Assembly: GCA_003388505.1 (NCBI GenBank)
Contig: QQVO01000018.1
Span: 1 to 64,000, forward strand
Length of the DNA: 64,000 nt
Origin: Planctomycetota bacterium
GTDB taxonomy: Bacteria > Planctomycetota > Planctomycetia > Planctomycetales > Planctomycetaceae
Reading direction: 5' to 3'
Part shown: positions 6,059 through 47,221 of the stretch, one piece after another
Position numbering within the stretch: the stretch's first letter is position 1
How the letters are laid out: the number at the start of each line of letters is the position of its first letter
Notes under the pieces: model-generated
What the model was told of the DNA's origin: nothing
What the model saw: only the letters and a program-made list of their open reading frames with translations
Database searches by the model: none
Program-made: the position numbers and the translations under genes

Positions 6059-7339
6059 GTGAAAGAATTCGTATCGACACTAGACGAAATCGGCCGACGG
6101 CAGTTCATGGAGGTTGCGGCCAAATCGGCGCTGGGGGTGAGCATGCTGCCGGCTTTGAGCCGTGCGGTCGAAGCCGCTCCGCAGGGGGGTCGCGCGAAGC
6201 GTCTGATCTACCTCTACATGGGCGGCGGAATGACCCACCTGGACACGTTCGACCTCAAACCGGGGCACGAGAACCAGGGCGAAACGGAGGCGATCAGCAC
6301 CTCCGTTCCGGGCGTGCAGATCAGCGAGTTCCTGCCGACCGTCGCAAGCCAGTTCAAACACATTGCTGCGATCCGCTCGATGTTCACGCAGACCGGCGAC
6401 CATGCCGGCGGCGAGTATCTGATGCGGACCAGCTATGAGGAAATTGCGACCACGCGGCACCCGTCGATGGGCCCGTGGATCCAGAAGTTCAAAGGACGGC
6501 AGAACAAGTCCCTCCCGGACACCGTGCTGATCAGTGCGCCGGCGCGGCATCCGGGTCCGGGGTTTTTCGATCCCACCTTCAGCCCGCTGCCGATCGGGGA
6601 TCCCAATCGCGGGCTCGAAAACACCGATCCCCCGGCTTACCTCACCGATTCGTCGTTTGAGAAGCGCGTCGAGTTGATCGACGCCTTCGACAAGAACTTC
6701 CGGGAGAAGTTCAACGTCCGCAAGGTGCGGACTTACACCGATCTGTACACCGAGGCCACCAGTCTGCTTTCCAGCGAGGAACTCAAGGCTTTCGACCTGA
6801 ACGAAGTGGAAGACGCCGAGCGGGATCGTTACGGCCGGGATCGCTTCGGGCAGGGCTGCCTGTTGGCACGGCGGCTGATTGAGAACAACGTCCGCTGCGT
6901 GGAAGTCACGTTCGGCGGATGGGACATGCACAACAGCATTTACAGTCCGGGCGCACTTCCGGCGCGGACCGGAGTTCTTGACCGGGCTCTCGGGAATCTG
7001 CTGAAAGATCTCTCCGAAAGCGGTCTGCTGAGTGACACGCTCATCGCGCTGACGACCGAATTCGGCCGTTCCCCGGTCATCAATTACAACGCGGGGCGCG
7101 ATCACCATCCCGCCGTGTTCTCGGCGCTGCTGGCGGGCGGAGGAGTCCAGGGAGGCCAGTTGTACGGGAAATCGGACGAAGAGGGGCACGGCGTCGAAGA
7201 GGACGGCGTGAGCCCGTCTGACTTCAATGCGACGATCGCCACCGCGCTCGGGTTGCCGCTCGAGGAGGAAGTTTTCTCGCCGACGGGCCGTCCGTTTACC
7301 GTCGCCCACGACGGAACCTGCGTTGAGGCGCTGTTGTAA
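6059..7339 (+). CDS. DUF1501 family exported protein
   Basis: This is a 426-residue protein. The N-terminus (GRRQFMEVAAKSALGVSMLP) is a twin-arginine-type export signal. The body has the DUF1501 signatures: YMGGGMTHLDTFDLKP near the start, an ALTTEFGRSP block, and GRDHHPAVFSALLAGGG near the C-terminus. DUF1501 belongs to the alkaline-phosphatase/sulfatase-like fold group and is usually adjacent to DUF1549/DUF1553 proteins, as here. The start is GTG with only a weak ribosome site. It lies 155 bp downstream of the TPR-DUF1549 gene and is probably co-transcribed with it. The substrate is unknown. Confidence 0.9.
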   Translation: MKEFVSTLDEIGRRQFMEVAAKSALGVSMLPALSRAVEAAPQGGRAKRLIYLYMGGGMTHLDTFDLKPGHENQGETEAISTSVPGVQISEFLPTVASQFKHIAAIRSMFTQTGDHAGGEYLMRTSYEEIATTRHPSMGPWIQKFKGRQNKSLPDTVLISAPARHPGPGFFDPTFSPLPIGDPNRGLENTDPPAYLTDSSFEKRVELIDAFDKNFREKFNVRKVRTYTDLYTEATSLLSSEELKAFDLNEVEDAERDRYGRDRFGQGCLLARRLIENNVRCVEVTFGGWDMHNSIYSPGALPARTGVLDRALGNLLKDLSESGLLSDTLIALTTEFGRSPVINYNAGRDHHPAVFSALLAGGGVQGGQLYGKSDEEGHGVEEDGVSPSDFNATIATALGLPLEEEVFSPTGRPFTVAHDGTCVEALL

Positions 7340-7417
7340 TCGGCGCGACGGCGGTGCGCGGACCCGGAAACCCCATCCATCGCGGGAGTCGTCTCGGAAC
7401 GCCGACTCACGCCCTGT

Positions 7418-8566
7418 TCACGAACCGCGCTTCGTGCCGCGCGGGGAAGCCCGGCCGCCTTTGCCGTTCGATCCGCGGGCAGGAACGACCGAGTCGTCCC
7501 GCTCGACGACCAGTACGTTGGAGGCGAGTTCGTCGACAACGCGTTCTTCGAGGCCTTTGGCGCGGGACCGCAGACGGCGCAGCTTGGCGACTGAAGAGCC
7601 GGGGGGCAGGCGGCCCAGATGACAGACCGGTTCTCCGGGGCTGACCGCCGGGAGAGTGGTCATGCCGAGGACGACGGCGTCGAAGGGGGCATGCAACGAA
7701 CTTCGCTCGTGCCCCAGCAGGTCGGCGTTCGTCGCCAGTGGTTGCTCGGCCTCGATGAACTCACCCGGCTTGACGTGAAATCTGAGAAATCCGCCCCGAT
7801 CGGCGCGAATCCACTTCGTTTTCTGAATCACGACCTGGTCGTCGGGGCGGTCGATCGGACCGTCGAGCATCTCCAGGTATTTGAGAACGTTCTTGATTCC
7901 CCGGGCGGCGGTCTCGACGATCGTCGGCTCGACCTTCCAGACTTCTCCGGCCTCCAGGATGATCGTCGGACATCCGCTTCGGCACGCTTCCCGCCGGAAC
8001 GCGCCTTTCGGTCCTTTGCCGTTGATGATGATCTCGCTGCCGAACGCCCTGGCCAGCTTGTTGACATCGGACCGGGCCATATCGCCCCGGACCGTGGGAT
8101 AGTTGGTCCGGCGAACGGCCGCCGTATGCAGGTCGATTCCATAGTCGCAGCGCGAGACGATTTCGGTGAAGATGGTGCGGGCCATGCGGCTGGCGAGGCT
8201 GCCTCCCACCGACCCCGGGAAACAGCGATTGAGATCGCGGCGATCAGGCAGATAACGCGAGTGGCGTTCGAACGCGGGGAGATTCAACACGGGGACGAAG
8301 ATGACGGCGCCGCGTTTGAGTCGCAGCGACTCATCGTGAATCAACTGGCGAATCGCCCCGGTCCCGTTGATCTCGTCACCGTGCAGCGCCGCGGTGACGA
8401 AGAGAACCGGCCCGTCCACGGCGGCGCGTCGAATCTGGATGGGAATCTGCACCGTCATGCTGCTGTAGCTTTCGCTGACGGCCAGCGCGACGTCGCGCGA
8501 CTCTCCAGCCGGGATCTTCTCTTTCTGCCACCGATCGATGGGCATTCGTTCGCGGGGCACGGGCAT
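7418..8566 (-). CDS. Succinylglutamate desuccinylase/aspartoacylase (AstE/AspA) family metalloenzyme
   Basis: This is a 382-residue protein of the M14-like zinc deacylase family. Zinc ligands are visible: H62 and E65 in ALHGDEINGTG, and H147 in YGIDLHTA. The DLNR segment (111-114), typical of substrate binding in this family, and a likely catalytic glutamate in TIILEAGE are also present. The family removes acyl or aminoacyl groups from amino-acid amides; here the substrate is unknown. It overlaps the upstream RimK-like gene by one base and is the last gene of a four-gene operon. This suggests that it hydrolyses or recycles the product made by the ligase. Confidence 0.88.
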   Translation of the reverse strand: MPVPRERMPIDRWQKEKIPAGESRDVALAVSESYSSMTVQIPIQIRRAAVDGPVLFVTAALHGDEINGTGAIRQLIHDESLRLKRGAVIFVPVLNLPAFERHSRYLPDRRDLNRCFPGSVGGSLASRMARTIFTEIVSRCDYGIDLHTAAVRRTNYPTVRGDMARSDVNKLARAFGSEIIINGKGPKGAFRREACRSGCPTIILEAGEVWKVEPTIVETAARGIKNVLKYLEMLDGPIDRPDDQVVIQKTKWIRADRGGFLRFHVKPGEFIEAEQPLATNADLLGHERSSLHAPFDAVVLGMTTLPAVSPGEPVCHLGRLPPGSSVAKLRRLRSRAKGLEERVVDELASNVLVVERDDSVVPARGSNGKGGRASPRGTKRGS

Positions 8567-9810
8567 CAGGAACTCCGCTGCTGTGCAGTGCGCTGCGCGG
8601 CCGATTCACTGTGCACTTCGTCGGCGACGGGGAGATCGGGCAGCTTGAGCACCTTGGGCCGGCGTTTCTTGCGAGCCTTCGGTGGAACGAGATCGCGCAT
8701 CAACTCCAGTTTTCCGAAACAGAGCAGCCGGTCTCCCGGTTCAAGGCGGCGTTCCGATTTCGGATTCGGTATGACCGTCGTGCCGCGATAGAGAGTCAGC
8801 ACGTTGATGTCTTTCTCTCGCAGCCCCGATTCGCTGATGGTCTTGCTGACGTACTCCGATCCGTCCGGAATGTGAATTTCGCTGACACCGTAGCCGCGGC
8901 TGACGGTCAGTCGCTGCCGCAGGTCGATCTCGGGGAAATCGACCTGCGCGGCGATGTAATCGACGACGGCGCCGGCGATGTCGAGTTGGGTGCAGCGTTC
9001 AATCCCTTCCAGCCCCGGCGAGGAGTTGACCTCCATGATCTGCGGGCCGCTCTTGCCTTCGAGCATGTCGACGCCGGCCACCCGCAGGCCCATGATCTGC
9101 GCCGCACGCACGGCGGTTTCGCGATAGGTTTCGTCCAGGTCGACCGATTCGGTCTGTCCGCCGCGATGGACGTTGCTGCGAAACTCCTGTCCTTGCGCGA
9201 CGCGGCGCATCGCGGCGACGACGCGGTCGCCGACGACGAACGCGCGGATGTCCCGGCCTTTGCTCTCGGCGACGAATTTCTGGATCAGCACATTCTGCCG
9301 CTGGCTCTGCAGCAACTCGATGATCGCCTCGGCCGATTTCACCGATTCCGCCAGCAGCACGCCGATGCCCTGGGTGCCCTCGAGCAGTTTGATGACGACC
9401 GGGGCGCCGCCGACGCGTTCGATGGCCGGCAGGACGTCTTTCCGGTCGCGGACGAAGGTCGTTTGCGGAATGCCGATGCGGTGGCGGCTCAGAATCTGGA
9501 GACTGCGGAGCTTGTCCCGCGAGTTGGCGATGCCGCTCGATGAGTTCGCCGCGAACACGTCCATCTGCTCGAATTGACGCACGACGGCGGTGCCGAAATA
9601 GGTGATTGAGGCGCCGATGCGCGGCAGAACGGCGTCGTAGTGGGTCAGTTGCTTCTGTCGGAAGAACAGATCGGGTTCGCCCTCCTCGAGGTCGATCGCG
9701 AACTTGATCGTGTTGAGCACCTTGACCTTATGGCCGCGCTGCACGGCGGCTTCGCGGAGTCGCCGCGTGCTGTAGCATTTTCGATTGCAGGAGAGGATCC
9801 CGAGTTTCAT
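8566..9810 (-). CDS. RimK-type ATP-grasp ligase fused to a TrkA-C (RCK_C) domain
   Basis: This is a 414-residue protein. Residues 1-290 are a RimK-family ATP-grasp amino-acid ligase: MKLGILSCNR at the start, the nucleotide-binding loop LLEGTQGIGV (143-151), and the Mg/ATP block IMEVNSSPGLEGIE near 258-271. E. coli RimK, about 300 residues, ends there. This protein continues with an RCK_C/TrkA-C domain (about 303-375, GYGVSEIHIPDGSEYVSKTI to LEPGDRLLCFG) and a basic tail (KARKKRRPK). TrkA-C domains usually regulate potassium channels and transporters and can bind small ligands, in some proteins cyclic di-AMP. A ligand-controlled glutamate or peptide ligase is therefore plausible but inferred. 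It overlaps the protease gene by four bases and the deacylase gene by one. Confidence 0.9.
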   Translation of the reverse strand: MKLGILSCNRKCYSTRRLREAAVQRGHKVKVLNTIKFAIDLEEGEPDLFFRQKQLTHYDAVLPRIGASITYFGTAVVRQFEQMDVFAANSSSGIANSRDKLRSLQILSRHRIGIPQTTFVRDRKDVLPAIERVGGAPVVIKLLEGTQGIGVLLAESVKSAEAIIELLQSQRQNVLIQKFVAESKGRDIRAFVVGDRVVAAMRRVAQGQEFRSNVHRGGQTESVDLDETYRETAVRAAQIMGLRVAGVDMLEGKSGPQIMEVNSSPGLEGIERCTQLDIAGAVVDYIAAQVDFPEIDLRQRLTVSRGYGVSEIHIPDGSEYVSKTISESGLREKDINVLTLYRGTTVIPNPKSERRLEPGDRLLCFGKLELMRDLVPPKARKKRRPKVLKLPDLPVADEVHSESAAQRTAQQRSS

Positions 9811-10301
9811 TCGATCGTTCCGGTTCGTTTGCGCGGGGGTCGCCGCGCTGGTTTGGGGGGTCTGCCGCCGTAATAGGAGCGTCCCGCGTCGACGAGCATC
9901 CGTCCGCGCACGGCCTCGCGCCCGAGCAACATACGAAAACCCATCTCGTCGCGGTTTGCGAGAGTGACTTCGATGGGCCAGGACTGCCCGAGGACTTCGA
10001 CGGTCGTCACGATCACGGGTCTTTGCGCCGCATGTCCGCTTGAACTCTTCACCTTGCGGAATTCGAGCACGGGCGCGACGGCTTCAACCGTCTCGCGCGT
10101 GCTCCGCTGCAGCGGATGCACCTTGAACCGGACGAACTGCGAACCGTCCTGCTCAAACACTTTCACGTCAAAGGCGTGCAGACTGGATGAACGGGCACCG
10201 GTGTCGACCTTCGCCTTGATTCCGGCAACGGCCAGATCGGGCAGGGAAACCCACTCTCGCCAGCCGACGACTAACGACGGTCGCTTGTGAGTCTTGTTCA
10301 T
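9807..10301 (-). CDS. RimB-like retropepsin-fold protease (PF05618, 'ATP-dependent zinc protease')
   Basis: This is a 164-residue protein from the ATG at 10301. The frame is open to 10391, but the extra N-terminus looks non-coding. VDTGARSSSLHA (32-43) carries the D-T-G active-site motif of retropepsin-like aspartic proteases. The family is annotated as zinc protease, although the motif is an aspartic one. Members are typically encoded beside RimK, for example as RimB in Pseudomonas. It overlaps the RimK-RCK gene by four bases and lies 119 bp after the TrkA-C membrane protein, so co-expression is likely. The arginine- and proline-rich C-terminus looks disordered. The target is unknown; trimming of RimK-added residues is a reasonable guess. 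Confidence 0.85.
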   Translation of the reverse strand: MNKTHKRPSLVVGWREWVSLPDLAVAGIKAKVDTGARSSSLHAFDVKVFEQDGSQFVRFKVHPLQRSTRETVEAVAPVLEFRKVKSSSGHAAQRPVIVTTVEVLGQSWPIEVTLANRDEMGFRMLLGREAVRGRMLVDAGRSYYGGRPPKPARRPPRKRTGTIE

Positions 10302-10420
10302 CGGTCGCGATTGTTGCAGGAATTGAGACGGGATTCCATTCGCAAGCGCCCCGGCACAACAGGATGATTGCGAAGTGACCGACGTCGGCATGAGGCAGGA
10401 CCGGGATTCGAGCGTGATCG

Positions 10421-11206
10421 TCAGTCCGCAGCGGTCTCTGTTTCGGCTTCTACCTGTTCTTCAACCACTTCTTCGTGTTCCATCACGGCTTCGCGATGCG
10501 CCTCGTCGCCGCGCCGGCCGGCGCGGCGCTGGTCCAGTTCTTCAATGCGGTCGATCGGTCCGTACAGGACCAGGACATCATCGGAGCGGAGGACTGTTTC
10601 TCCGACCGGCGCGCCGACATATTTTCCGTCGCCGCGAATGATGCCCAGGACTAGCACGCCCTCGTCAGGCAGTCGCAGTTCCTGCAACGACTTCTCCGCC
10701 AGCCAATCGGTCGGTTCAATCTGCATCTCGGTCACGGCGTAGCCGCTCTGCAGGTGCAGGACGGCGACGTAGTCGCGAACTTCCATGCGGGCCCAGCGAC
10801 GGAGCGCGTACGAGATCATCCTGTTCATCCGTCGTTCGATCCAGCGACTGCGGGCAACGTACCAGAGCACTGCAAAACCGCCGGCCAGCATCAGCACGCC
10901 GGGGAGGGACTCTTCCGCCTGCGCTGTTGCGACGAAGGACACCATGAGCGTGGCGACGACGGTGGCAATTCCGGCGTTGCCAAGCAGCATCAGCACCATG
11001 ACGATCCTTCGCCGGACCGGATGATTGACGATCGACTCCGATTCCCCCGTGGTAAAGCCGACTCCGGAAAAGGCGGATCGGGCCTGGAACCGCGCCGCCT
11101 CGCGGGAGAGCCCGGTCAGCATCAGCGACATGGCCGCCACGCGCGTGATCAGGAGCGAGAGGCTGACGGCGATCAGCGGCGAGAGGATGGCGATCAGTGA
11201 TGTCAT
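10421..11206 (-). CDS. Membrane protein with C-terminal TrkA-C (RCK_C) domain
   Basis: This is a 261-residue protein with membrane segments at about 1-25, 66-92 and 100-118. A TrkA-C domain follows at about 150-222 (SGYAVTEMQIEP to LRSDDVLVLYGP), then an acidic tail. The segment FQARSAFSGVGFTTGESE resembles the pore-helix region of TrkH/Ktr-type potassium channels, but only a fraction of such a channel is present. It is the first gene of the RimK operon. The presence of two TrkA-C domains in one operon, one on a membrane protein and one on the ligase, suggests both read the same ligand. Whether it transports ions is unknown. Confidence 0.8.
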   Translation of the reverse strand: MTSLIAILSPLIAVSLSLLITRVAAMSLMLTGLSREAARFQARSAFSGVGFTTGESESIVNHPVRRRIVMVLMLLGNAGIATVVATLMVSFVATAQAEESLPGVLMLAGGFAVLWYVARSRWIERRMNRMISYALRRWARMEVRDYVAVLHLQSGYAVTEMQIEPTDWLAEKSLQELRLPDEGVLVLGIIRGDGKYVGAPVGETVLRSDDVLVLYGPIDRIEELDQRRAGRRGDEAHREAVMEHEEVVEEQVEAETETAAD

Positions 11207-11252
11207 ACGCTTGTGCGCGGCGTGCTTCGAATCGTGAGCGAACGTGAAGCTT

Positions 11253-11268
11253 TAGAGCAATTTGCTCT
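11253..11268 (-). promoter_or_regulatory. Palindrome AGAGCAA-A-TTGCTCT, possible operator
   Basis: A 7-bp inverted repeat with a one-base centre lies 47-62 bp upstream of the RimK operon start codon. It is the same 16 bases that open copies C and D of the 104-bp repeat, here without the rest of the repeat. The position fits an operator for the operon or for the divergent acyltransferase gene. Confidence 0.45.
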
Positions 11269-11326
11269 TGGTCAGCATTGTGACAGGTCGGAATCGAGGC
11301 TGCTATCGGCGGAAATCTGACGGAAT

Positions 11327-12631
11327 TTGACAACCTTGCTGGGCGAGGTAGTGTTCCGCGGGGCTCCCTCTTGTGTGGGGGCCGCGTATGCGCTGCGCGA
11401 ATCCGTCGGTGATCTGTTGTCCGAACGCTCCGCCAGGCCGATCCACGACTCTGCAATCCGGGTTCCCGAACTGGACGGGCTCCGCGGAATCGCGATCGCG
11501 CTGGTGATGCTCGTCCACTTCGGGATGAGAATCGAGCCCGATTCCGGGGCGAGCGAATGGGTCTGGGCTCTCTGCCGTACGGGATGGTGCGGCGTCGATC
11601 TGTTCTTCGTTCTCAGCGGATTTCTGATCACAGGGATTCTGCTCGACACGCGAAGCGACGAGGGATACTACCGGAAATTCTTCGCTCGCAGAGTGCTGCG
11701 GATCTTTCCCCTGTATTACGGGGTGCTGCTGACTGTGTTCGTCGGGCTGCCGGTGCTGGCGCCCGGAATGATCGACGCCGGCCTGCAGTCGAAACAGGGC
11801 TTTCTCTGGGCCTATGTTTCGAATTTCATCTCAATCCGGGAGGGGGCCGAACCCTGGCGGGGGACGACGCTCAACTTCGCCCACTTCTGGTCGCTGGCGA
11901 TCGAAGAGCAGTTCTACCTGTTCTGGCCGCTGGTGGTCTACCGGGCGGGCCGACTGCGGTTGAAGCGACTCTGCGTGGCGCTGATTGTTGTTGCGCTGCC
12001 GCTACGCATGCTGGCCCATGAGTGGATCGGCCCGTTCGCGCCTTATTACCTCACGCCCTGCCGGATTGACACACTCGCCTGGGGCGCGCTGGCGGCCGTC
12101 TGGATGAGGTTGCACTCGCGCGACGAGATGATCGCCTGTGGAAAACGGCTCATCGCTTGCACGGCGCCGTGCCTGGCCGGTCTGTTCTTTTGGAGGGGGG
12201 GACTGATTCACTTCGATCCGGTCGTCACCGGATTCGGCTTCTCGCTGCTGGCGGCCTGCTTCACAGGGGTTCTGGTGCTCGTTTATTGCGTTCCGCAGTC
12301 GCGCTGGTGCGCACCGCTTCGGGGCCGGTTTCTCCAGAGCCTGGGGCGGTACAGTTATGCGACCTATGTGTTTCACGGCCTGCTGCAAGTCTGGCTGTGG
12401 GGGTTCGCAGAGGGGTTTCGGGCAACTGCCGGAAACTATTTCGCAGCACTGTTGCTGTATGTGCTGTTCTGCGGCGGCGTCTCTTACGCGTGCGCCCGAC
12501 TGACCTGGCCGCTGGAAGTCGCCTGCCTGCGGCTGAAGCGGCACTTCGAGTACGACTCGCGTCAGAAGTCGAATGCTCCGTCGAAGTCTCTTTCCGACGG
12601 CCTGATCGGAGAACCGGCTCCGGCCTCCTGA
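11327..12631 (+). CDS. Acyltransferase-3 family (OafA/YrhL-like) membrane acyltransferase
   Basis: This is a protein of up to 434 residues with about ten hydrophobic segments. The family signature RVPELDGLRGIAIALVML is followed by H, and the motif FFVLSGFLITGILL follows. YRKFFARRVLRIFPLYYGVL and FAHFWSLAIEEQFYLFWPLV are the other classic blocks. These enzymes O-acylate sugars of surface polysaccharides or peptidoglycan at the membrane. The annotated start is TTG; a GTG further in, closer to the DGLRG motif, is possible because the first 40 residues show no family similarity. The gene stands alone, divergent from the RimK operon, so its substrate cannot be inferred. Confidence 0.88.
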   Translation: MTTLLGEVVFRGAPSCVGAAYALRESVGDLLSERSARPIHDSAIRVPELDGLRGIAIALVMLVHFGMRIEPDSGASEWVWALCRTGWCGVDLFFVLSGFLITGILLDTRSDEGYYRKFFARRVLRIFPLYYGVLLTVFVGLPVLAPGMIDAGLQSKQGFLWAYVSNFISIREGAEPWRGTTLNFAHFWSLAIEEQFYLFWPLVVYRAGRLRLKRLCVALIVVALPLRMLAHEWIGPFAPYYLTPCRIDTLAWGALAAVWMRLHSRDEMIACGKRLIACTAPCLAGLFFWRGGLIHFDPVVTGFGFSLLAACFTGVLVLVYCVPQSRWCAPLRGRFLQSLGRYSYATYVFHGLLQVWLWGFAEGFRATAGNYFAALLLYVLFCGGVSYACARLTWPLEVACLRLKRHFEYDSRQKSNAPSKSLSDGLIGEPAPAS

Positions 12632-45864: not shown

Positions 45865-46860
45865 TCACACTGCGGAGGAGTCGCCGCCTTCCGGAACCGG
45901 ATCCTTTTCGTCTTCAATCTCTCCCACAAGTTCTTCAAGCACGTCCTCCAGCGACACAACTCCGACGGTGCGCCCGCCCTCCCGGACTGTCGCCAGGTGC
46001 GTGCGGCGGTCCCGGAACAGCAGCAGCAGTTCGTCGGATCGTTGCCCGGCGTCAACGGTCAGCCCCGGTTGAACAAGAGCCGTAATCGGCTCGTCCCCGC
46101 GTCCGTCGGCCTGCGCCTCCAGCACCGTCCGGGTGATGAGCATTCCGCGGACGTCGTCTGACCCCTCGCCGATCACCGGATGACGCGAGTAACCGCTCTT
46201 GCGCACGATCTGCACCGCATCGCTCACGGTTGCCTCAGCGCTGACGACGGCGACGTCCGCCAGCGGCGTCATGATGTCCGCAGCCCTGCGGTCGTTCAAC
46301 ACGAAAACGCGATGGATCAGTTGCCCTTCATCGCTTTCGATGTATCCCGCGCGCCGTCCAATCGCGGCCAGTGAGCGAATCTGCTGCTCCGTTCCGATCG
46401 GTCGCTCACCCGGCGTCAGTTTTTTCGACAGCCATTCCAGCGACACCACCAGAGGGTAGAGCAGCCATTGCAGGATCAGTACCACCGGGGCTGCGAAACG
46501 GCTGATGCGCGGCGCAAAGTGGGCGCCCAGCGCCTTCGGAATGATTTCCGAACAGATGATCGTTCCCAGCGTCAGACTCAAGGACACCATAAAGAACGCG
46601 CCCTCGCCGAAAATCTGGAACGCCTGGTGACTGACCAGGATCGGCCCCAGAACGTTGATCAGGTTCGTCAGCACGACGATCACCACAACAGCCCGCATCA
46701 ACTGCTGCTTGACTCGCTTGAGTTCCGGTGCGCCCCATCGCCCGCGCCCGATCAACTCTTCGATCTCCGGCCGGGTCACACTGAGAACAGCCGCATCGAC
46801 CGCCGCCATCAACCCGGACAGCGCAAGAAAACCGAGAAACGTCAACACAAGCAGCGTCAT
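45865..46860 (-). CDS. DUF21 (CNNM) - CBS pair membrane protein
   Basis: This is a 331-residue protein. The DUF21/CNNM transmembrane domain (1 to about 145) has the motif SLTLGTIICSEIIPKALGAH. A CBS-domain pair follows (about 190-310, with DIMTPLADVAVVSAEATVSD and GVVSLEDVLEELVGEIEDEK). The CorC_HlyC domain that ends many family members is missing, so the protein is shorter than CorC-type homologues. The family is linked to magnesium or other metal transport or to its control. The ATG is at 46860. It is upstream of the HlyD-like gene on the same strand, but the 303-bp gap argues against tight coupling. Confidence 0.86.
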   Translation of the reverse strand: MTLLVLTFLGFLALSGLMAAVDAAVLSVTRPEIEELIGRGRWGAPELKRVKQQLMRAVVVIVVLTNLINVLGPILVSHQAFQIFGEGAFFMVSLSLTLGTIICSEIIPKALGAHFAPRISRFAAPVVLILQWLLYPLVVSLEWLSKKLTPGERPIGTEQQIRSLAAIGRRAGYIESDEGQLIHRVFVLNDRRAADIMTPLADVAVVSAEATVSDAVQIVRKSGYSRHPVIGEGSDDVRGMLITRTVLEAQADGRGDEPITALVQPGLTVDAGQRSDELLLLFRDRRTHLATVREGGRTVGVVSLEDVLEELVGEIEDEKDPVPEGGDSSAV

Positions 46861-47221
46861 GGCGGCGTCACGTCAAGCAGGAATCGGGCGATGAGTCCGC
46901 GCAGGGAGGTCCAACGGACATCTTCAATGCGGCGGAACCTGTCGCGACATCCTGCACCGCAGAGAGCCGGTTTGCAAACCGGGAGCGTCCCAGCACGGCT
47001 GGTTTGCCACAACCAGACAGAGTCGAATGACATTCGTGCAGCGTGCGCGCACGTTGCGCGGATATCCATTCGGAAGACTCGAACGAGGCAGGGCCTCGGA
47101 CCATGCGAGCTGCCGCTCGAAAGCGGGAACCCGCTCCCGTTGGTCGCTGAAACCTGACTCAAGTGCAACAACTTCCAGGAAGAACGTAACCTAACCGCTC
47201 TGCAACGACCAGGCGGGCCGT
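46861..47221. other. Non-coding stretch with perfect palindrome
   Basis: CCGGTTTGCAAACCGG (46967-46982) is a perfect 16-bp palindrome, followed by GGGAGCGTCCCAGCACGGCTGGTTTGCC, split here only by description. Sequences of this form are common between planctomycete genes as I recall. No gene was seen. Confidence 0.5.

Follow-up and report, generated by a model that had tools for sequence, protein, structure and literature searches.

Why would a glutamate ligase of the RimK type carry an RCK_C domain, a module familiar from K+ channels and antiporters? The question is raised by a locus of a Planctomycetota bacterium (assembly GCA_003388505.1; 6.78 Mb in 78 contigs), within a stretch of 64,000 nucleotides, positions 1 to 64,000 of contig QQVO01000018.1, that we call the window. 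A minus-strand gene (8566..9810) encodes a 414-residue RimK-type ATP-grasp alpha-L-glutamate ligase with a C-terminal RCK_C/TrkA_C domain; RimK ligases bearing this domain are called RimK* below. The same strand carries, on either side, the genes for a RimB-like retropepsin-type protease of family PF05618 (9807..10391) and a 382-residue AstE/AspA-type hydrolase (7418..8566; AstE for short), and we refer to the three genes as the trio. The RimK* trio is a variant form of the RimK/RimB system, newly recognised here with ion-transport neighbours. Our preferred reading, to which we give a probability of roughly 0.45, is that its products would put on and take off alpha-linked glutamate in a cycle under ionic or osmotic control.

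We examined the two parts of RimK* separately. Pfam recognised Rimk_N at residues 1-94 (E 6.9e-36), RimK at 98-286 (2.4e-58) and TrkA_C at 310-369 (1e-9), with 122.9, 197.3 and 38.6 bits against cut-offs of 26.4 (PF18030), 21 (PF08443) and 27 (TrkA_C). Residues 1-287 aligned end to end with the E. coli and Pseudomonas RimK structures, and the score for the NCBIfam model TIGR00768 was well over its cut-off (257.4 versus 143.4 bits). With the S6--L-glutamate ligase equivalog NF007764, RimK* reached 327.4 bits, just short of the cut-off of 331, and is thus not filed under that equivalog. Judging from its family, the core should ligate glutamate.

The first-pass annotation had read the added part of the ligase as an RCK/TrkA-C domain and had named structure prediction as the check on it; the predicted fold now agrees with the Pfam call. 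An AlphaFold2 (AF2) model of residues 294-382 (8665..8931, minus strand) had a predicted local distance difference test (pLDDT) score of 81. With this model, Foldseek retrieved MthK, KhtT with cyclic di-AMP (c-di-AMP) and BusR at E values of about 1e-5 to 1e-4. VIA-align gave Z scores of 11.3 to 2bkn (root-mean-square deviation, rmsd, 3.5 over 85 residues), 10.8 to KhtT 7ahm_B (rmsd 2.4, 82 residues) and 10.6 to the KtrA RCK_C with c-di-AMP (rmsd 3.4, 83 residues). A profile of 73 domain sequences found the same proteins among the PDB sequences: MthK and KtrA (E 0.0014), KtrC (0.01), BusR (0.012), S. aureus KtrA (4xtt, 0.014) and KhtT (0.03). Most simply, the RCK_C domain would add ligand control to RimK*.

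Do the genes around RimK* recur with it? We gathered loci from a contig search and from a survey of 294 genomes of the phylum, the survey loci being picked by hand from its match list. The contig sample leans to close relatives because the best 80 of at least 544 confirmed stretches were retained; their RimK* proteins are 76-87% identical over about 400 residues. For 86 RimK* loci, 2 kb or more of sequence was available on each side; in 75 of them at least one partner adjoined the ligase: both in 51, the RimB-like gene only in 13 and AstE only in 11, leaving 11 with neither. Both were present in 39 of 60 close relatives versus 12 of 26 survey loci, and 8 of those 26 had neither. The commonest order was RimB-RimK*-AstE (53/110 loci, the window counted in and L136 excluded). 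By crude gene calls, made from the first start codon and a composition score, the median spacing was 19 bases between the RimB-like gene and RimK* and -1 between RimK* and AstE; in the window the first two frames overlap by four bases and the last two by one. The conserved unit is therefore three genes: RimB-like, RimK* and AstE. This arrangement is wider than the fusion, because RimK without the domain (a group of 30 loci, the interrupted L031 among them) kept both partners in 6 of 28 loci, and because four survey loci (L139, L140, L141 and L142) carry RimB-like and RimK domains in one frame, without TrkA_C.

The fourth gene behaved differently. The locus had first been annotated as a four-gene operon that also included a membrane protein with a C-terminal TrkA_C domain (10421..11206, minus strand; Pfam E 1.8e-13). 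All four genes were found where they had been placed, with their domains confirmed by Pfam, and they are indeed co-directional and closely spaced; the four do not form a conserved unit, which elsewhere consists of the three genes. Relatives of the membrane protein at E 1.2e-24 or better occurred in 27 of the 294 phylum genomes, 13 of these with RimK*. In 12 of the 12 survey genomes other than that of the window that hold both genes, the membrane gene lay at least 28 kb from RimK* or on another contig. Among the 80 contig loci it was near the trio only in L051 (adjoining, convergent) and in L080 (about 7 kb away). We therefore rejected it as a conserved partner of the ligase; in the window it is a co-directional neighbour. 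The earlier proposal had been staked on neighbours that do not vary freely between genomes, and this held for the RimB-like and AstE genes and failed for the membrane gene. For the N-terminal half of the membrane protein neither Pfam nor NCBIfam gave a match at E 0.001; the C-terminal tail of the protein reads as glutamate-rich, and a second copy of the gene lies on contig C20 of the window genome.

The four genes are likely read as a single transcript. A search of 7330-11340 for sequence patterns turned up neither a sigma-70-like promoter, with 0.2 expected per shuffle, nor a terminator, with 3.4 expected. In the RimB-like protein, Pfam homology starts only at residue 41, so that the gene may truly begin at the internal Met at 10301, which would widen the gap to the membrane gene from the annotated 29 bases to 119. 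DUF1501- and DUF1549-type genes neighbour the locus, as read from the sequence; they and the closest relatives indicate Planctomycetota as the phylum.

We then considered what the two partners may do. The protease was well over the PF05618 cut-off (E 2.2e-36; 125.3 versus 27 bits) and its DTGA motif aligned with that of 9g59. It scored 128.2 bits with the RimB equivalog NF052261, under the cut-off of 200, yet this was the best of four models tested (58.6-73.8 bits with the RloA models); we therefore call it RimB-like. Pseudomonas RimB is described as taking glutamates off ribosomal protein S6, cutting polyglutamate and stimulating poly-alpha-glutamate synthesis (PMC11957791). AstE matched AstE_AspA_cat with 130.8 bits against a cut-off of 25 (E 5.8e-38) and kept the metal-site motifs HGDE, DLNR and DLH when aligned with 3cdx.

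The deacylase family of AstE raises the possibility of a small-molecule pathway, in which RimK* would join glutamate to a small acid and AstE would hydrolyse the N-acyl product, an osmolyte. Mammalian RIMKLA/B with aspartoacylase offer a parallel, and the best NCBIfam relative of AstE is the ectoine-pathway deacetylase DoeB (TIGR02994), although at 70.9 bits AstE is far below the cut-off of 402.7. Members of the RimK superfamily are described as joining glutamate to small molecules (PMC8141765). However, such a pathway leaves the RimB-like protease, whose relatives cut polyglutamate, without a substrate, and no acyltransferase recurred among the listed neighbour clusters, in which no search was aimed at one. 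We regard this pathway as quite unlikely.

How is the fused ligase distributed? The record titles of its relatives name Planctomycetota, Thermodesulfobacteriota, Chloroflexota, Pseudomonadota, Myxococcota, Spirochaetota, Acidobacteriota, Gemmatimonadota and others; most are metagenome-assembled genomes, whose phylum labels may be wrong. Among the matches listed for the phylum survey, 55 in 53 genomes extend to query residue 375 or beyond, and nearly all other RimK matches in that list, which is in E-value order, stop by residue 310. A record of R. baltica (L069) carries the trio. We built a tree, by a quick method, of 105 RimK cores: 75 of the 97 dereplicated RimK* rows and 30 others. The others have long branches, and only 19 of the 102 inner branches are starred. 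The fused state changes twice on this tree, and once when L031 is set aside. Thus, the interrupted L031 apart, a single branch of the RimK tree separates RimK* from the other ligases. In L031 (5461-6738), RimK* is split by one in-frame stop between the ligase and TrkA_C parts, and in L014 (37-1323) an in-frame stop falls inside TrkA_C; either stop may reflect error, recoding or decay. One chromosome (TBK1r, CP036432.1; L036 and L081) has two RimK* genes, with the neighbours AstE-RimK* and RimB-like-RimK*. The window genome (G000) has three more RimK-family ATP-grasp matches, on contigs C2, C23 and C28.

The genes beyond the trio point to ion transport. We ran an open Pfam scan on the neighbours of the unit (96 of 96 proteins upstream and 96 of 102 downstream, five of the six omitted ones being left out for length). 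MscS (9/96) and CorA (7/96) topped the list for the first gene upstream; CBS (7), MgtE (4), CNNM (3) and Na+/H+ exchanger (3) led among the 96 downstream neighbours. For counting, we derived hidden Markov models (HMMs) of four ion families, MscS, CorA, MgtE and CNNM, from the sequences at these same loci; the MgtE model also catches CBS-domain and other proteins, in the controls as well. The four families made up 38 of 400 first and second neighbours versus 5 of 963 control genes (p 3e-16), the controls being 60 random 20-kb regions from 12 genomes of the surveyed phylum. The excess persisted in the phylum survey loci alone, which share their source with the controls (9/114 versus 5/963, p 1.6e-6), for MscS and CorA alone in those loci (7/114 versus 1/963), and after grouping of RimK* at 85% identity (20/209, p 1e-11). 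At least one ion-family gene lay within two genes of the unit in 24 of 109 loci, from six named phyla and the survey. The trait changed 16 times on the 105-core tree, and is thus not one inherited block. Some loci form small clusters: CorA, MscS, trio and MgtE (L062); MscS, trio, MgtE and CorA (L108); CorA, MscS, trio and the TrkA-C membrane gene (L051); and MscS, trio, CNNM, two MgtE-type genes and two more MscS (L084). In one random control region (L192, 2-574 and 1795-2748), an AstE relative lies two genes from MscS, with no RimK match there. The window itself has a CNNM/CorC-type gene elsewhere (45868-46872, minus strand; E 2.2e-72 to the local HMM).

The ion-transport neighbours independently favour control by ionic or osmotic state. 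The first-pass annotation had proposed that a ligand, for example c-di-AMP or potassium state, controls an amino-acid ligation and removal cycle; of this, the idea of an ionic signal is independently supported by these neighbours. The products of nearby genes could also be the target: by glutamylating the C-terminal tails of channels or sensors encoded there, RimK* might tune the transporters. The glutamate-rich tail of the window's membrane TrkA-C protein would fit such a role, as would the nearby ion-transport genes themselves. However, the neighbour families change by locus and most loci have none of them within two genes, and we consider this the least probable of the explanations, a very improbable one.

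Could the substrate instead be ribosomal? If RimK* glutamylated S6 and the RimB-like protease reversed it, RCK_C would tie translation to ionic state. The closest characterised relatives, of Pseudomonas and E. coli, are described as acting on S6 (PMC11957791). We compared the S6 C-termini of 30 of the 53 RimK* genomes with those of 30 genomes with no or weak RimK match, which gave 29 matches and 28 closed frames (one row, L242, is probably in a wrong frame and was kept in the count). S6 ended in Glu in 8/30 versus 4/28, a Glu end being an assumed requirement, and the last six residues held on average 2.3 versus 1.6 acidic residues. This difference leans towards S6; it is small, the tails vary widely and the S6 of the window genome ends in SSS. 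With no clear difference at the C-terminus, this comparison did not bear out S6 as a signature substrate. The tails neither support S6 as a dedicated target nor exclude it. The RimK* score below the S6 ligase cut-off also counts against ribosome modification, which moreover leaves AstE and the ion-transport neighbours unaccounted for; we judge it unlikely. Free polyglutamate would suit the ion-transport setting better than S6.

Some published observations bear on an osmotic role. In P. aeruginosa, the RimB relative RloA is reported to be needed in hypo-osmotic stress (PMC12239564), and R. baltica to accumulate glutamate under salt stress (PMC2754498). A glutamate-modification gene set, with RimK among its cited sources, is described as commoner in brackish than in marine genomes (PMC10219603). 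A rimK single-nucleotide polymorphism reported in Cs+-resistant E. coli is a weak hint at most (PMC10831881).

We wondered which ligand the RCK_C domain might bind. The phylum can, by its gene content, make c-di-AMP: DAC domains gave three matches in the window genome and were present in 52 of the 53 RimK* genomes. Presence of DAC is not discriminating, because most other genomes have it too (271/294). The c-di-AMP pocket of KtrA, which we take to comprise I163, I168, R169, I174, N175, P189 and P191, was mapped to RimK* by hand on alignments, together with the BusR contacts described in PMC8517857. The putative equivalents I325, L330, R331, I335, N336 and P350 are kept in 54-73 of 73 sequences; the second pocket proline (the P191 equivalent) is not kept in these 73. 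The residues are compatible with c-di-AMP and not diagnostic of it, because several are common to the whole domain family. We thus hold c-di-AMP to be a plausible, if tentative, leading candidate for the ligand of RimK*.

Taken together, these results suggest the following scheme for a glutamate cycle under ionic or osmotic control. By analogy with its family, RimK* would attach L-glutamate either to the C-terminus of a protein or to glutamate itself. Its RCK_C domain, whose fold is predicted, may bind a small ligand between two subunits and thereby switch the ligase. Going by Pseudomonas RimB, the RimB-like protease would cleave polyglutamate and might also stimulate RimK*; AstE may complete the removal, acting either as an exopeptidase or as a deacylase. 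The likeliest output would be a regulated pool of anions, glutamate or polyglutamate, that offsets K+ and is kept in step with channels and Mg2+ transporters often encoded nearby. A bolder form of this scheme has RimK* gated directly by the K+-channel sensor domain, so that c-di-AMP or a cation would set poly-alpha-glutamate as an adjustable counter-ion store alongside mechanosensitive and Mg2+ channels; ion homeostasis would then be the primary role of RimK/RimB, and ribosome modification a special case. We think this form possible, although doubtful.

Several points weigh against the cycle under ionic or osmotic control. The ligand, the substrate and the activity of every member are predictions. 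The full-length AF2 model of RimK*, made with 39 close relatives, was poor (pLDDT 48) and was not used, so that any seating of RCK_C on the ligase is conjectural. In 85 of 109 loci none of the four ion families lies within two genes, and the local HMMs found none near the unit in the window. The families were picked after the enrichment had been seen. Near and far genes of the same loci differed modestly (38/400 versus 29/570, p 0.01), with no clear difference when Planctomycetota and survey loci were taken (19/274 versus 14/346, p 0.15). Finally, RimK loci without the domain were also enriched, less strongly (6/117, p 4e-4); the enrichment therefore tracks the RimK set and not RCK_C alone.

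This last result would also suit a domain that senses nothing. RCK_C domains dimerise as a rule, and the one on RimK* may only hold a ligase oligomer, the ion neighbours reflecting shared stress regulation without a direct link. The RCK_C of BusR is described as dimeric without ligand (PMC8517857). On the other side, the ligand-pocket equivalents are mostly conserved in the 73 sequences, although several are common to the domain family, and we find a purely structural domain improbable.

How does the trio relate to known systems? The Pseudomonas RimABK system and the Desulfotalea RimBK hybrid likewise combine RimK with a retropepsin-type RimB protease, with polyglutamate made and cut (PMC11957791, PMC10092738), and the single-frame RimB-like/RimK genes of L139-L142 resemble the published hybrid (PMC11957791). 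In RimABK/RimBK, RimA and cyclic di-GMP (c-di-GMP) are described as the regulators (PMC11957791), whereas here an RCK_C domain sits on the ligase and AstE is a partner. RloABC of P. aeruginosa, as described, also joins a retropepsin-type protease and an ATP-grasp gene with a link to osmotic stress (PMC12239564); it differs in that the window protease fits the RimB model better than the RloA models. The RimK* domain has the fold of the RCK_C domains of MthK, KtrA, KtrC, KhtT and BusR and detectable sequence similarity to them, and BusR, a repressor, is a precedent for RCK_C on a protein other than a transporter; in RimK*, unlike in these, the domain sits on an ATP-grasp ligase. With AstE/AspA deacylases including DoeB, the window AstE has the catalytic domain and metal-site motifs in common, and it lies far below the DoeB cut-off. 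Neither TrkA nor AstE is mentioned in the main text of PMC11957791, which reports a survey of rim genes in 5959 accessions. In the titles, abstract starts and some passages of the open-licence papers that our searches listed, we found no description of a RimK-TrkA_C fusion, an AstE partner or an ion-transport setting, in line with the initial remark that TrkA-C on the ligase is not known from described systems.

What RimK and bacterial poly-alpha-glutamate do for the cell is a live question. RimK* makes it directly testable, with a built-in sensor domain, AstE as a third conserved enzyme and, in several phyla, genes for ion transport close by. If the glutamate cycle under ionic or osmotic control is true, RCK_C would here govern biosynthesis, in contrast to the channels, antiporters and repressor on which it is otherwise found.

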